Below, one piece after another: positions 7,129-32,100 of a stretch of 34,033 bases of DNA; the first letter of the stretch is position 1, and each line of letters begins with the position of its first letter. Made by a program: the position numbers and the translations under genes. Below the pieces are notes generated by a model that did no database searches, was not told the DNA's origin, and saw nothing but the letters and a program-made list of their open reading frames with translations. Source of the stretch: Rubrobacter sp. (lineage in GTDB: Bacteria > Actinomycetota > Rubrobacteria > Rubrobacterales > Rubrobacteraceae); contig JACCWD010000118.1 of NCBI GenBank assembly GCA_013697825.1, positions 1-34,033 on the forward strand, in the 5' to 3' direction.

Positions 7129-8091
7129 ATGCTTTCGGATCGGTCGTGCGCCAGAGGTGTGGGCGGAGCCTTCGCGGCTCTCGGAAGCATACCCATGTTC
7201 CGCGGCGCGTCCCGGAGGGATGTCCGGATCGAAGCCCTCTCGAACTCTTTCACGAACTCGAGCTTCCGCGTGGACTTCGGCGGCGACTCGTTCCTCCTCC
7301 GCCTCTCGGGCATGGGGACGTCGGGCTATATTGACCGGGCCGCCGAGGAGCATAACGCGAGGATCGCCGCGAGATCCGGCGTGAACGCCGAGATTTTGTT
7401 CTCCGACGCGAAGAGCGGCACGATGGTCTGCCGCTTCATCGAGGGTGTCGGAATGGATGTGGAGGGTTTCGCCTCCGACCCGACTTCTCCGGCGAGGGCC
7501 GCCGCCGCGCTTCGGCGGGTGCATCGGTGCGGGGAGGGTTTCGCTTCCCGCTTCGACCCCTTCGCGAGGATCGAGGCTTATGCGCGGACACTCCGCCGCT
7601 CGCGTGTCCCGCTTCCCGGGGATCTCGATCGCACCCTCGAAGCGGCTCGTCTTATGAGACGGAGGCTCCCCCCGCCGCCTCTCGCCCCGTGCCACAACGA
7701 TCCGTGGCCGGGGAACTTCGTGGACGGCGGGCTTCGGATGTATCTCGTTGACTGGGAATACTCCGGGATGAACGACCCGATGTGGGATCTCGCCGACCTC
7801 TCGGTGGAGGCGGACTTCGACGTATCGAAAGACCGGACATTCCTCGAAGCGTACTTCGGAGGCCCGATACCGCACGATGCCCGCCGCCGCTTCGAGATGC
7901 AAAAACCGGTGTGCGACCTCTTTTGGTCGCTGTGGGGCTTCCTGCAAACCGTCAACGGCAATGCGAGGCCGGGCGAGGACTTCCTCGCATACGCTAATGA
8001 TCGGCACGAGCGATGCAAAGCCCGCCTCTCCGCCCCCGAATTCTCCGCGCTCTTCGCAGGCTCGGAGAACTCGAAGATCACGGTCGGTTAG
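7129..8091 (+). CDS. Choline/ethanolamine or aminoglycoside kinase-like phosphotransferase
   Basis: The 320-residue protein has the protein-kinase-like fold of the APH/choline kinase family. The catalytic loop CHNDPWPGNFV (HxDxxxxN with the usual catalytic Asp) is followed by the metal-binding MYLVDWEYSGMNDPMWDLADL. An N-terminal ATP-binding half includes NSSFRVDFGGDSFLLRL, and FIEGVGMD resembles the hinge. The WEYSGMNDPMWDLA wording is closest to choline or ethanolamine kinases such as LicA. The start is ATG 7129 with AAAAGGA upstream. The 3' end overlaps the convergent DUF4188 gene by 4 nt (8088-8091). Confidence 0.85.
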   Translation: MLSDRSCARGVGGAFAALGSIPMFRGASRRDVRIEALSNSFTNSSFRVDFGGDSFLLRLSGMGTSGYIDRAAEEHNARIAARSGVNAEILFSDAKSGTMVCRFIEGVGMDVEGFASDPTSPARAAAALRRVHRCGEGFASRFDPFARIEAYARTLRRSRVPLPGDLDRTLEAARLMRRRLPPPPLAPCHNDPWPGNFVDGGLRMYLVDWEYSGMNDPMWDLADLSVEADFDVSKDRTFLEAYFGGPIPHDARRRFEMQKPVCDLFWSLWGFLQTVNGNARPGEDFLAYANDRHERCKARLSAPEFSALFAGSENSKITVG

Positions 8092-8636
8092 CCGACCTCC
8101 CCGACAGATTCGGGGACGAGCGTTTCGGAGCCGGGTTCCCCACCCGCCTCGACCGTCCCGCTCCGAATTCTTCGGCGGCGACGCGTCTCTTTTCCGCCGA
8201 AGGCCGGGATGTGCTTCGTCGCCCTCGCAAGCCCGGAGACGGGAACGTCTGCGTACACGGCCTCATAACACCCCGGCCCGACGAGGTACGCCTCGTGCCA
8301 CAGCCCGACCGCGCCGCCCTTCCTCACCCTCCGGTTGAATTTCTGCCATCCGGGCATGTGCGCCTCGTTCGGGTTCCTCGAATAATTTTCGAGGTCTTCA
8401 TAAGATCTCCAATATTGAAAGAGCGTGACACCCCGCCAGCAAAAGTGCGTATGTCCGCCGAGGAAGCCCGTCCCCGGCCTCTCGCGAAGCTCCCGAAGCA
8501 TCGAGCGCAGCGACGACATCACCCCGACCCACTCCCGGAAGGCGAACACCCGATTTACCCTCACCCCCATCACGAACACCGCGAAAGACTCGTCCGTCCG
8601 GGCCGTGAACCTCCCGCCCATAACCTCCTCCGCCAC
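8088..8636 (-). CDS. DUF4188 / af470-like monooxygenase family protein, paralogue 2
   Basis: The 182-residue protein matches its upstream neighbour through MGGRFTARTDESFAVFVMGVRVN, a WRGVTLFQYWRSYEDLENYSRNP block and VGLWHEAYLVGPGCYEAVYADVP. The family (PF13826, formerly DUF4188) is annotated monooxygenase-like after a fungal enzyme of fumagillin synthesis; bacterial roles are untested. GTG 8636 is chosen because it aligns with the paralogue's start and has GGGGAGG 5 nt upstream; an upstream TTG at 8669 would add 11 residues. The C-terminus beyond about 140 is an Arg-rich tail absent from the paralogue. A -10-like TACAAT (8688-8683) suggests an extra promoter. Last gene of the PadR-divergent operon. 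Confidence 0.8.
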   Translation of the reverse strand: MAEEVMGGRFTARTDESFAVFVMGVRVNRVFAFREWVGVMSSLRSMLRELRERPGTGFLGGHTHFCWRGVTLFQYWRSYEDLENYSRNPNEAHMPGWQKFNRRVRKGGAVGLWHEAYLVGPGCYEAVYADVPVSGLARATKHIPAFGGKETRRRRRIRSGTVEAGGEPGSETLVPESVGEVG

Positions 8637-8730
8637 CGAAACCTCCCCGCCCGCCGACAACGCCTCCAAACTTCCACACGGAATTGTAGCGGTTTATTGG
8701 GAATGTTTCTCAGTTCGGTCGCGAAGCGGC

Positions 8731-9207
8731 CTATTCGCGCATGAGTCTCTTTCGGGCGGTCTTTTGCCGCCCGACTGCCGGGACGTGTTCGGTGGCTTTG
8801 GCGAGGCCGAGGGGGGGCATGTTCACGTATATGGCTTCGAATGTTCCGGGTTTAATGGTGTATGTCTCGTGCCATACGCCGACGGAACCGTCGGAGCCGA
8901 CTTTCTGGTTGAAGCGCCGCCACGCTGGAAGATGCGGATCGTCGGGGTTTTTGGCGAAGCGTTCGAGGTCTTCGAAGGAGTGCCAGTATTGGACGAGCAT
9001 CGGGCCTCGGAGGTGGAGGAAGAAGTCCGCGCCGAGGAAGCCTTTTTCGGGGTGCTTGTAAAGCTCGCGGAGCATCGGCCCCATCGCTCGGACGGTGGGG
9101 AGCCATTTGCCGACGGCGAGGAAGTTGTTTATTCGCATCCCGATCATGAAGACCGCGAACGGCTCGTCCATGTTCGCGGTGAAGCGTCCGTTCATCACTT
9201 TCGCCAT
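8731..9207 (-). CDS. DUF4188 / af470-like monooxygenase family protein, paralogue 1
   Basis: The 158-residue protein has the family blocks MNGRFTANMDEPFAVFMIGMRIN, LVQYWHSFEDLERFAKNPDDPHLPAW, VGVWHETY and FEAIYVNMPPLGLAKAT. The fold is predicted to be a dimeric ferredoxin-like alpha+beta barrel, as in antibiotic-synthesis monooxygenases. The start ATG 9207 follows AAAGGTG at 6-nt spacing, and the upstream membrane protein gene ends only 6 nt before. Placement in a PadR-divergent operon suggests a role in handling a phenolic or otherwise toxic small molecule; that is inference. Confidence 0.82.
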   Translation of the reverse strand: MAKVMNGRFTANMDEPFAVFMIGMRINNFLAVGKWLPTVRAMGPMLRELYKHPEKGFLGADFFLHLRGPMLVQYWHSFEDLERFAKNPDDPHLPAWRRFNQKVGSDGSVGVWHETYTIKPGTFEAIYVNMPPLGLAKATEHVPAVGRQKTARKRLMRE

Positions 9208-10820: not shown

Positions 10821-10890
10821 GTTCTCAGTTCTCAGTTCTCAGTTTTCAGCCGAGAACCGAGAACTAAAGACTGGGAACCGGGGGGCGCGT
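10821..10890. repeat. Heptad-built intergenic palindrome, copy 2
   Basis: The left half is TTCTCAG three times then TTTTCAG; the right half is CCGAGAA, CCGAGAA, CTAAAGA, CTGGGAA. GCTCGC-like sequence flanks both sides. It lies 35 bp after the padR-like stop on the same strand as the next gene, where it could fold as a long hairpin ending the padR transcript. Confidence 0.75.
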
Positions 10891-11077: not shown

Positions 11078-12247
11078 GTGGAAACGCGAAAGTACGAAGA
11101 CCGGGACATCGAGGCGCTTTCGCGGGCGGCTTCGCTCGCCTTCGGGGGGAGCGTGGAGGATTGGAAGGAATACTACGACCCCGGCAAAAGCCCGAGCATG
11201 AACCTCGAAGGAGTATTCGTCATCGAGGACGACGGCGAGGCTCGGGCGAGCGCGACCGTGCTTCCCCTCGAAGCCTTCGTGGACGGGGAGGCGTTTCCGA
11301 TGGACGGCGTGGCGGCGGTCTTCGCCCATCCGGCGTACCGTAGGCGCGGATATGCCGGGGAACTCATGCGGACGCTCCTTTCGGATATGCGCGGGCGGGG
11401 CGTGCATCTCTCGATGTTGTGGCCGTTCAACCACTCGTTTTACCGGGCGCACGGATACGAACTCGCCGGGGAGTCCATACGGTACAAACTCAACCCGAGG
11501 GAACTCGAAACGTCCGACGAGCAAAGAAACGTGAGGGCGTTTCGGGACGGGGATCTTCCCGGCCTCATCTCCGTTTTCGAAGAGGGGGCGGCGTGGCATC
11601 AATTGTGCGTGAAGCGGAAGCGGAAGGTGTGGGAGAAAATCCCCGAAAGGAAGGAATGGAACCTCGCCGTCCACGAGCGGGAGGGGAGCGTCGAGGGGTA
11701 CATCCTCTTTCGGATGGTGGATGGGGACGAAGAGAAACGTTCCGTCAAAATCCTCAATCTCGTCGCCGCGACGAATGAGGCGCGGGCCGGGATTCTCTCG
11801 TTCCTCGCGGCTTATGACCCGATGGACTATGTCATAACGTATGACGCGCCGCGGGGAGCTCCGCTCCACCCGTACCTTGCGAGTTCGCACGTCGAGATGA
11901 AGATCGAGACCGAGTTCATGCTCCGCCTCGTGGACGTGGAGGGCGCGCTCGGACACCTCCGGCGCGAGGCGAAGTCCCCGCTCGTCCTCGAAGTCTCCGA
12001 CTACGGAATCCCGGAAAACAATGGCGAATACACCGTCGGGAGCGGGAAAGCGTATCGGGGAAATGGAGCGAAGCATCGGGTGCGGCTCGACGTTCGGCGG
12101 CTCGCGCAGCTTTACGCCGGGTATCTCCCGGCCCGGAAGCTCGCCGAGCATGGGATGATACGGCCCGATTCGGAGAAAGCCCTCGAACTCCTCGAAGAGT
12201 ATTTTCCCGTCGGCGACCCGTGGGTGTATCCGACGGATCACTTTTAG
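11078..12247 (+). CDS. Eis-like GNAT N-acetyltransferase
   Basis: The 389-residue protein matches the Eis group in length and layout: an N-terminal GNAT domain with VAAVFAHPAYRRRGYAGELM carrying the acetyl-CoA loop RRRGYAG (about 88-94), LWPFNHSFYRAHGYELAG with the candidate general-acid Tyr, a second degenerate GNAT domain in the middle, and a C-terminal SCP2-like region. It ends in Phe, fitting the Eis mechanism in which the C-terminal carboxylate acts as base. Eis proteins acetylate amines including aminoglycosides and lysines; the substrate here is unknown. GTG 11078 has GGGGAGGG upstream. Confidence 0.85.
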   Translation: METRKYEDRDIEALSRAASLAFGGSVEDWKEYYDPGKSPSMNLEGVFVIEDDGEARASATVLPLEAFVDGEAFPMDGVAAVFAHPAYRRRGYAGELMRTLLSDMRGRGVHLSMLWPFNHSFYRAHGYELAGESIRYKLNPRELETSDEQRNVRAFRDGDLPGLISVFEEGAAWHQLCVKRKRKVWEKIPERKEWNLAVHEREGSVEGYILFRMVDGDEEKRSVKILNLVAATNEARAGILSFLAAYDPMDYVITYDAPRGAPLHPYLASSHVEMKIETEFMLRLVDVEGALGHLRREAKSPLVLEVSDYGIPENNGEYTVGSGKAYRGNGAKHRVRLDVRRLAQLYAGYLPARKLAEHGMIRPDSEKALELLEEYFPVGDPWVYPTDHF

Positions 12248-12281
12248 GGAGGGGGCGTGTCGCCCGCGGGTCCGCTGGCTG

Positions 12282-12287
12282 TATAAT
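12282..12287 (+). promoter_or_regulatory. Perfect -10 TATAAT for the small-protein/TIR-like pair
   Basis: TATAAT starts 35 bp after the GNAT stop and 36 bp before the small ORF's ATG. Predicted start near 12294. A -35 match is not visible at 16-18 bp. Confidence 0.5.
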
Positions 12288-12317
12288 TAGGTGATTCGAA
12301 GAAAATAAGGCGGAGAA

Positions 12318-12470
12318 ATGGCTACGAAAAAGCGGGACATTGTTCAGACGAAAAATCCGAAGACGGGTCGGTACGTGAAGATAGACCGCTCCGTCGGAAG
12401 GATCCTCGACACGAAGAAAAGCCCCGGAAAATACAAGGGTATCCCGGTGGCACGCAAACGCGATAAATGA
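12318..12470 (+). CDS. Small basic protein paired with a TIR/deoxyribosyltransferase-like gene
   Basis: A 50-residue, Lys/Arg-rich protein (starts MATKKRDIVQTKNPKTG; contains GRYVKIDRSVGRI and ends KGIPVARKRDK). The middle resembles short strands around KNPKTGRYVKID followed by a basic tail. Its stop overlaps the next ATG (ATGA at 12467-12470), and it is preceded by GGCGGAG and a perfect TATAAT, so it is very likely translated. By position and size it could be an antitoxin or immunity partner of the downstream protein; this is inference, and I cannot name its family. Confidence 0.72.
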   Translation: MATKKRDIVQTKNPKTGRYVKIDRSVGRILDTKKSPGKYKGIPVARKRDK

Positions 12471-13114
12471 TTCTGTACAGGCTCAATGAAGGGCTTGCCT
12501 ACCAAGAAAAGATTCTTTATCGTCCCCGAACATGCTTCCTCATGACCCAGTTGGGGGATCCCGTCCCCCCGGAAGTCGATTCTATTCGGGAGAAGCTGAA
12601 GAGCGCTTTGGAAGAGCATGATGTCGCGCTTATCGACGCCGACAGCGAAGTTACGGGCGGAGACTTTCTGTTCAAGATTTGGCAAATGATCGTGGCCGTC
12701 CCGCTTGCGGTGGCGGTAGTCCATGAAGAAATGCCCACCACAACGCAGTGCAATGTTTTCTATGAGGTCGGATTGGCTCACGCGCTCGGCAAGGAATCCA
12801 TCGTGATAAAAACGCCGAAAGCACGAATCCCCTCCGATTTCGTACGCACCGAGTACATAAAGTACGATCCAAACTTCGAACAAAGGATGAAGAAGTACCT
12901 CGACAACTTTTTTAAGCAAGGGGAATGGTATGAACTCGTAGCCGAGCAAGTGGAGCGAAATCCGCTGCTCGCCATAGATTATTTGCGAAGAGCTTTTTTG
13001 ATCTCTGGAGACACCCGGATCAAGGCCGAGGTCGCGAATATCCGGGGGGACTTTGTCCCTCCACGAAAGAGCGAAAAACAGCGTCGAGATCCTTTTGGCC
13101 GAGTTCTAAATTAA
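12467..13114 (+). CDS. TIR / nucleoside 2-deoxyribosyltransferase-like protein
   Basis: The 215-residue protein has the Rossmann-like flavodoxin fold shared by nucleoside deoxyribosyltransferases and bacterial TIR/STIR domains. Visible are a first strand CFLMTQLG (23-30), helix PEVDSIREKLKSALEEH, strand VALIDAD, and the signature CNVFYEVGLAHALGK (95-109) in which E100 aligns with the catalytic Glu of both families; IVIKT follows as the next strand. TIR proteins of this kind cleave NAD or bind nucleotides in defence systems, while NDTs cleave nucleosides. The C-terminal 80 residues are helical. Base composition is lower in GC than neighbours (51% in 12721-12840 against 65% in 13441-13500, counted by hand), suggesting transfer. 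Coupled to the small basic protein by a 4-nt overlap. Confidence 0.7.
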   Translation: MILYRLNEGLAYQEKILYRPRTCFLMTQLGDPVPPEVDSIREKLKSALEEHDVALIDADSEVTGGDFLFKIWQMIVAVPLAVAVVHEEMPTTTQCNVFYEVGLAHALGKESIVIKTPKARIPSDFVRTEYIKYDPNFEQRMKKYLDNFFKQGEWYELVAEQVERNPLLAIDYLRRAFLISGDTRIKAEVANIRGDFVPPRKSEKQRRDPFGRVLN

Positions 13115-13123
13115 GGAGCGTTT

Positions 13124-14128
13124 ATGAAAACCACCGGAACCGTCGGATACGCCGCGATGTTCGAGCAATTCCATCCCACCGATCTCTTGAAATGGTCGAA
13201 GGTCGCCGAAGACTCGGGCTTCACCTCGGTGATGGCCTCCGACCACTTCCATCCGTGGACGCCCGAGCAAGGCGAGAGCGCGTTCGTGTGGGCGTGGCTC
13301 GGCGCTTTGGGTGCGACCACGAACATGCGTTTCGGGACGGGTGTCACGCCGCCGGGATTCCGGTACCATCCGGCGATCATCGCTCAAGCCGCCGCGACCC
13401 TCGAAGCGATGTATCCGGGGCGTTTCTGGCTCGGCCTCGGAGCCGGGGAAGCCCTCAATGAACACGTCGTCGGGGAATATTGGCCGGAGGCTCCGACCCG
13501 GCTCCGCATCCTCATGGAGTCCATCGAGGTCATACGGAAGCTGTTTTCCGGGAAGAAAGTGAAGTACGCCGGGGATCACATAAAGCTCGAGAGCGCGCAG
13601 CTTTATACGATGCCCGACGCGCCGCCCCCGATATACGTGGCGACGGCGGGGCCGATCATGAGCAAAAGGACGGGTCGCCTGTGCGACGGCATCATCACCG
13701 TCGGAGCGCCGGACGAAAAGATAAACATGCTCATGAAGAAGTTCGAGGAGGGCGCGAAGGAGGAGGATAAAGACCCCTCGCAAATGCCGCGCATGATTCA
13801 GCTTCACGTCTCGTGGGCCGAGAGTCAAAGCGAGGCCGAGGAAAACGCCGTCAAAGAATGGCCGAACGGCGGGATGCCCTTCCCGAAGGCCGACATTCGA
13901 AACCCCGAGGACTTTCAGGCGATGGCGAAACAAGTGAGTATCGAGAACTTCGCGAACCGGGTTCTCACGTCGGCGGATCTCGACGAGCATCTCGAACATA
14001 TCCAGAAATACGTGGATCTCGGCTTCGATGAAGTGTACGTCCACAATTGCGGACGAAATCAGGAGGAGTTCATAAAGGCGTACGGCGAGCGGGTCATCCC
14101 GAAGCTCCGGTGGCGGAAGGAAAGTTAA
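13124..14128 (+). CDS. LLM-class F420-dependent oxidoreductase related to F420 glucose-6-phosphate dehydrogenase
   Basis: The 334-residue protein aligns with Fgd1 across its length. The Fgd1 catalytic residues E13, H40, W44 and E109 correspond to E14, H41 (in SDHFHPW), W45 and E109 (in GLGAGEALNE), so F420 hydride chemistry is likely. The Fgd1 phosphate-binding Lys198 falls in a stretch reading TVGAPDEK here and seems not to be conserved in place, so glucose-6-phosphate is probably not the substrate. The family corresponds to the 'G6PDH-related' LLM group. ATG 13124 has AAGGAG 6 nt upstream. It follows the TIR-like gene by 9 bp and precedes the FAD oxidoreductase by 9 bp, so it may be expressed from the same promoter. 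Confidence 0.9.
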   Translation: MKTTGTVGYAAMFEQFHPTDLLKWSKVAEDSGFTSVMASDHFHPWTPEQGESAFVWAWLGALGATTNMRFGTGVTPPGFRYHPAIIAQAAATLEAMYPGRFWLGLGAGEALNEHVVGEYWPEAPTRLRILMESIEVIRKLFSGKKVKYAGDHIKLESAQLYTMPDAPPPIYVATAGPIMSKRTGRLCDGIITVGAPDEKINMLMKKFEEGAKEEDKDPSQMPRMIQLHVSWAESQSEAEENAVKEWPNGGMPFPKADIRNPEDFQAMAKQVSIENFANRVLTSADLDEHLEHIQKYVDLGFDEVYVHNCGRNQEEFIKAYGERVIPKLRWRKES

Positions 14129-16957: not shown

Positions 16958-16970
16958 GGCCGCTTCGCTC

Positions 16971-17026
16971 TTTTTAGTTCTCGGTTCTCGGCTAAAAACT
17001 AAAAACCGAGAACCGAGAACTAAAAA
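16971..17026. repeat. Heptad-built palindrome, copy 3, with a perfect 21-bp stem
   Basis: Arms 16971-16991 and 17006-17026 are perfectly complementary around a 14-nt A-rich loop made of two CTAAAAA units. The arms are TTCTCGG units on the left and CCGAGAA units on the right. GCTTCGCTC-like and GCGAGCGAAGCG-like sequence flanks it. It lies between two convergent genes (AbgT-family and fumarase beta) and carries TTTTT and AAAAA at its base, so it should terminate transcription from both sides. Confidence 0.85.
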
Positions 17027-17056
17027 CTGAGAACGGCGAGCGAAGCGAGCTCCTCG

Positions 17057-32011: not shown

Positions 32012-32100
32012 GTGAGGTCGCTCCGCTCGCGGTTCTTAGTTCTTGGCTAAAAACTAAGAACTAAGAACCGCGAGCGGAGCCGAAGGCGAAGCGACCTCAC
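32012..32100. repeat. Heptad-built palindrome, copy 5, with a perfect 25-bp stem
   Basis: Arms 32020-32044 and 32056-32080 are perfect inverted repeats around an 11-nt loop with a CTAAAAA unit. An outer 10-bp pair, 32012-32021 and 32091-32100, adds a second nested inversion with a 10-bp asymmetric insert. TTCTTAG units make the left arm and CTAAGAA units the right. The right end includes the stop codon of the BCCT gene (32097-32099), and the left end lies 40 bp upstream of the polX start, so it could end the BCCT transcript before polX. Confidence 0.85.

Follow-up and report, generated by a model that had tools for sequence, protein, structure and literature searches.

Within a 34,033-nucleotide stretch of Rubrobacter sp. 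DNA (hereafter the window), a gene for a 50-amino acid basic protein (positions 12318-12470, + strand) is followed by, and overlaps with, a gene for a 215-amino acid protein that resembles enzymes of the TIR/DrHyd superfamily (12467-13114, + strand), referred to below as the effector. The two genes are best read as a mobile toxin-antitoxin-like defence module, made up of a glycohydrolase and a small protein that controls it, and we consider the chances of this reading as a whole to be about even.

Both ORFs are as described in the first-pass annotation of this DNA, and so is the ATGA tetranucleotide (12467-12470, + strand), read from the sequence, in which the stop codon of the small gene overlaps with the start codon of the effector gene. 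The overlap suggests that the two genes may be translationally coupled. The pair has the layout of a type II toxin-antitoxin system, that is, two adjacent, co-directional and overlapping genes of which the small one comes first; antitoxin and toxin genes usually follow this order, with such a 4-nt overlap. A perfect TATAAT, pointed out previously, is present on the + strand at 12282-12287 and is the sole copy on that strand within the window, but it is a tentative -10 element since it has no -35-like partner hexamer and a sigma-70 promoter scan was negative. Upstream of the cassette, no repeat or palindrome of the operator type stands out, and an Rfam search of the cassette region gave zero matches, indicating that it contains no known RNA component. 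The GC content of the cassette (12318-13114) is 51.1%, which is below that of every other 797-bp segment sampled (mean 61.9%, sd 2.5%). An earlier hand count of 51% for positions 12721-12840 agrees with the calculated value of 50.8%, but the gene that follows the cassette (13124-14128) has a GC content of 59.8% and not the 65% given at the time.

An AlphaFold model of the effector (pLDDT 84.3, pTM 0.80) shows a five-stranded alpha/beta Rossmannoid, and a Foldseek comparison returned the TIR domain of SARM1 (1.9e-5), NDT (5.2e-5) and DNPH1 (1.2e-4), with CMP N-glycosidase and SfSTING as other structural matches, as well as viral CAP12/Pycsar-TIR and NDT-like models. The predicted structure thus supports a TIR/deoxyribosyltransferase fold, in agreement with the first-pass annotation. 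The FYEVG sequence noted before (the FYEVGLAHALGK stretch) was confirmed, with Glu as residue 100, and this residue lies in a predicted helix spanning residues 91-106, so that the effector combines the fold of the TIR/NDT (TIR-DrHyd-SLOG) superfamily with a conserved Glu in the third main helix. It is part of a predicted catalytic motif, N96-V-F-Y-E100-V-G...G108-K109 (codons 12752-12793, + strand), which was delineated from conservation in the alignment. Among 18 family sequences, E100 is invariant, together with D66, K70, W72, N96, F98, Y99, G102, G108 and K109, and, C-terminal of the motif, S123, D124, R127, E129, N165, P166, L168 and Y172. The C-terminal part of the protein (residues 137-195; 12875-13051, + strand) is helical in the AlphaFold model, with helices at 137-161, 166-180 and 184-195, and contains a conserved NP(L/V)L..Y..RA motif.

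By profile comparison, the effector belongs with DrHyd-like and CAP12-type TIR-like domains and not with classical NDTs. Alignment of the effector family with DrHyd-like proteins encoded by plasmids, phages and genomes gave an hhalign probability of 99.4% (E 9e-22); we named this set ourselves, based on the motif and on the presence of TPR-S and TRAF-binding domains in one of the proteins. The comparison with CAP12-type TIRs, which comprised three sequences, was moderate (60%, E 8.6e-5). E100 aligns with the conserved Glu of both groups, and the PSD motif of the effector aligns with the PSD of the CAP12-type TIRs. The effector also matches phrog_3634 at 6.8e-9. The CAP12/Pycsar TIR family PF10137 is matched below its cut-off by 14 of the 18 family members (best E 1e-3), and the window effector, with 15.4 bits against a gathering cut-off of 24.7 bits, is related to this family but not filed as a member of it. 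Membership of the classical NDTs (PF05014) was rejected, based on an hhalign probability of 0.1% against three NDTs in a thin alignment; a PF05014 match was found in one of the 18 members, at E 0.2. Sequence searches of the PDB with the effector yielded either chance matches or none. The original designation as TIR/deoxyribosyltransferase-like therefore holds for the fold, but the profiles replace its NDT half by DrHyd/CAP12-type TIR-like domains. TIR and DrHyd domains of conflict and immunity systems act as NADases or ADP-ribosyl cyclases (PMC9503650), and members of the TIR-like DUF4062 family deplete NAD+ in abortive infection (PMC13174449). Because of this activity in conflict systems, NAD+ is the likeliest substrate of the effector, and by this analogy we consider it fairly likely that NAD+ is what it cleaves.

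Several known systems resemble parts of the cassette. The DrHyd-like domains (phrog_3634, and the N-terminal domain of TRAFs-binding/TPR-S proteins) have the fold and the N-x-F-Y-E-x-G core motif in common with the effector, but the latter is a stand-alone protein of 215 amino acids without TPR-S and TRAF-binding domains, has conserved motifs of its own (TG.D.L.KIW and PSDF.R.E) as well as the C-terminal helices, and carries a near-obligate small partner. The CAP12/Pycsar-type TIR NADases (PF10137), which include bacterial TIR-STING, share the aligned Glu and PSD, and SfSTING is one of the structural matches, whereas the effector has neither a STING nor a cyclic-nucleotide sensor domain, and a cyclase gene was not seen beside it. 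Swarozyc (DUF4062), likened here by description, has a similar TIR-like NADase logic, a conserved catalytic Glu and a relation to NDTs, but is a single protein with its own portal-binding domain and without a separate small partner (PMC13174449). In Sofic and its anti-Sofic AS1 a defence toxin is likewise controlled by a short protein encoded by a neighbouring gene, yet Sofic is a FIC AMPylase, the small gene lies downstream, and the proteins are unrelated to those of the cassette (PMC12249575).

To establish how often the two genes occur together, 84,980 species genomes were scanned for effector relatives using a profile-guided, alignment-based search. This yielded 18 loci in at least nine phyla including archaea, with sources in the Actinomycetota, Thermodesulfobacteriota, Bacillota, Nitrospirota, Pseudomonadota, Methanosarcinaceae (archaea), Chloroflexota, Balneolota, Kiritimatiellales and Spirochaetota; among them are L028 and L036, in genomes G019 and G152, respectively, and the cassette of Seongchinamella unica GH4-78 (L033). 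The small gene is located directly upstream with an exact 4-nt overlap (ATGA, GTGA or TTGA) in 16 of the 18 relatives. At one of the other two loci (L039) the small gene is upstream of the effector gene with a gap of 98 nt, and at the other (L042) a truncated effector follows what remains of the small gene, a stretch of 14 residues, so that the sole locus without a full small gene also lacks an intact effector. Whole-genome searches found one small-protein match and one effector match per genome, adjacent to each other, in 17 of the 18, the genome with the truncated pair being the exception. The gene-neighbourhood survey proposed earlier thus found the genes nearly always, and not rarely, adjacent. 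Comparison of close relatives shows purifying selection on both genes, with dN/dS values of 0.03-0.16 (small gene) and 0.06-0.50 (effector gene). The recurrence of the 4-nt overlap across these phyla, the purifying selection and the absence of the pair from the corresponding site in the same genus (see below) argue that the pairing is more than chance. Pairwise identities of the two proteins are correlated (Mantel r 0.63, p 2e-4), which could also result from common descent alone. Compared to the window proteins, paired copies of the small protein are 57-76% identical and those of the effector 41-63%. Single-sequence effector scans of genome contigs and viral contigs gave zero matches, and in viral contigs the alignment-based pattern, too, failed to detect the subfamily.

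The small protein (net charge +13) matches the PADLOC family PDC-S38 (model PDLC05010) at E 9.7e-12 and the uncharacterized phage family phrog_12550 at E 8.2e-12. PDC-S38 is a phage defence candidate label in PADLOC, and our literature search found no paper on PDC-S38 in phage defence. All 24 aligned members of the small-protein family match it, and their charge ranges from +6 to +15. AlphaFold predicts a three-stranded beta meander (pLDDT 85), for which Foldseek found nothing significant in the PDB. The sequence NPKTGRYVKI resembles the arm of HU-family proteins weakly (PDB 2np2, E 0.32), and homology to HU/IHF (PF00216) was rejected in a profile comparison (hhalign 0.7%).

Based on sequence and gene context, the family divides into a short form (IVQ.KNP..), to which the window protein belongs and which is coupled to the TIR-like effector, and a long form (RSQ.KNP..), which is found in Streptococcus and Staphylococcus prophages beside a gene for an ImmA/IrrE-like peptidase and in some genomes adjoins KAP NTPase or ImmA/XRE genes. 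The PADLOC model covers one gene and is most like the long form with its different neighbours, whereas here the gene is one of a pair. An example of the long form is found at positions 2944-3391 of L022, where the gene is convergent with or adjacent to the peptidase gene, as it is at similar loci (L023-L025, L051-L076), many of them Streptococcus and Staphylococcus prophages. Another is found in a genome of the same family as the window (L007, 1495-3165), where a long-form gene precedes the gene for a KAP P-loop NTPase by 4 nt, and XRE and ImmA/IrrE genes are oriented divergently to this pair. The short form occurs without the effector in a few viral contigs (L046, L047, which is 67% identical, and L048-L050). 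In L048 (4995-5222), L049 and L050 it has a basic C-terminal extension and is encoded between genes for an SPP1-type portal and a possible minor capsid protein. In L046 (4686-5168) a NadM-like (CTP_transf_like) nucleotidyltransferase domain is followed in frame by a C-terminal PDC-S38-like domain. This is the one example of such a fusion that was found, and it possibly links the small protein to NAD metabolism.

The cassette lies in an inserted segment (12248-13117, + strand), which is preceded by the gene for a GNAT acetyltransferase (11078-12247) and followed by that for a luciferase-like monooxygenase (13124-14128). In a genome of the same genus (G001, locus L088) the two flanking genes, whose products are 81% (GNAT) and 94% (monooxygenase) identical to those of the window, are adjacent across a 181-bp spacer and the cassette is absent; in four further genomes (G003, G004, G005 and G007) a monooxygenase gene is also found close beyond the GNAT gene. 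The cassette is therefore an insertion, its site being unoccupied in this other member of the genus, which supports mobility. No terminal repeats were found around the inserted segment. At the search threshold used, matches occurred in four of 397 genomes of the phylum, one of them weak. The GC content of the cassette is lower than that of its own locus in 16 of the 18 loci, and by at least 6 points in 14. Since the effector tree is star-like and without resolution, horizontal transfer is argued from the patchy distribution and the empty site. The neighbours, as read by eye, place the cassettes singly among apparently housekeeping genes and outside defence islands. Related genomes share a site in two cases (L031/L037 and L035/L038/L039), so that the cassette may be kept over long periods. 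The latter three are Methanosarcinaceae, which have the cassette at the same place inside a cluster resembling tetrapyrrole biosynthesis genes, suggesting long retention, although this would also fit a housekeeping role.

Elsewhere, the window contains a dispersed palindromic repeat of the GGTTCTTAGTTCT...AGAACTAAGAACC type at 2775-2832, 10821-10878, 16963-17034 and 32018-32080, with a perfect 25-bp inverted repeat at 32020-32080. Two adjacent and similar Monooxy_af470-like genes on the - strand (8088-8669 and 8731-9207) were apparently produced by tandem duplication; the second was assigned by Pfam, the first by similarity only.

If the cassette is a toxin-antitoxin-like module, the small protein would be made first, coupled to the effector through the ATGA overlap, and would bind the effector and hold it inactive. 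Infection would disturb this complex and release the effector, a TIR/DrHyd-superfamily glycohydrolase that would cleave the N-glycosidic bond of NAD+, or of a related nucleotide, by means of Glu100, and thereby halt the cell. That the effector is toxic and has a role in defence seems to us probable, and the defence reading is supported by the PDC-S38 match, the low GC content and the presence of the insertion where a sister species has none. The toxin-antitoxin or defence cassette of the first-pass annotation thus remains the best description, with a role that is deduced from sequence. The gene order, the overlap, the one-to-one pairing and the decay of both genes in L042 favor an antitoxin-like inhibitor, although this role of the small protein, as opposed to that of a sensor or activator, is a tentative assignment, to which we give somewhat less than an even chance. 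Several observations speak against the module: the small protein shows higher conservation than a toxin-specific antitoxin would be expected to, the PF10137 match is sub-threshold and the match to the CAP12-type TIR profile moderate, and the cassettes are placed singly among apparently housekeeping genes.

The higher conservation of the small protein, and the occurrence of its family in phages without the effector, imply that it may have its own target, and make a sensor or activator a serious rival to the inhibitor. The small protein might sense infection, perhaps through its binding to a phage component or nucleic acid, and activate the TIR-like enzyme, in which case the phage members of its family would be related ligands or decoys. 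We regard this as unlikely overall, since the small-first order with its 4-nt overlap is that of antitoxin and toxin and Foldseek recognized no ligand-binding fold in the small protein. It would fit, however, with a very basic protein that is strongly conserved across phyla, with the short-form genes in viral contigs L047 and L048-L050, the latter next to an SPP1-type portal gene, and with the fact that phage proteins can activate TIR-like defence enzymes, as the portal does for DUF4062 (PMC13174449). The same positive charge, together with the predicted small beta sheet and the weak likeness to an HU arm, could mean that the small protein chiefly serves to autoregulate the operon by binding DNA or RNA, the effector being a stand-alone enzyme. 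The HU likeness fails in profile comparison, no operator-typical repeat or palindrome is found upstream, and the presence of the family in phage structural-gene and lysogeny regions does not suggest an operator-specific regulator, so that we consider autoregulation quite improbable.

If the effector were a housekeeping N-glycosidase of nucleotides or nucleosides, assisted by a small accessory protein and acting outside conflict, this would agree with DNPH1, NDT and CMP N-glycosidase among the structural matches, and with the singleton placement among apparently metabolic genes and the shared position in the three Methanosarcinaceae genomes. The distribution is very patchy for such an enzyme, as judged from the few matches within the phylum, and the low GC content, the empty site in the same genus, the spread over distant phyla including archaea and the failed homology to classical NDTs all point away from it, making it the kind of explanation we find highly improbable.

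Returning to the toxin-antitoxin-like defence module, the kind of effector (TIR/DrHyd) and the candidate label of the small protein were known already, but the pair itself is probably undescribed: no description of it was found in the family libraries and the mostly open-access literature searched. Within this scope the previous remark that no named system contains the pair stands, except that the small protein already carries the label PDC-S38. It is possible, though rather doubtful, that the cassette represents a new immune system extending across phyla, with a tiny beta-sheet protein governing a TIR/DrHyd-like NADase, and that the phage-borne copies of this protein, including the NadM-like fusion, would either trigger the system or serve as decoys to disarm it. 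If true, this would be a minimal two-gene NAD-targeting system common to bacteria and archaea, which defence-finding tools would pick up, at most, as a lone small candidate gene, and the PDC-S38 family would gain a specific partner. With relatives of the small protein in phages, how a TIR-like enzyme and a family of phage proteins regulate each other would become testable.
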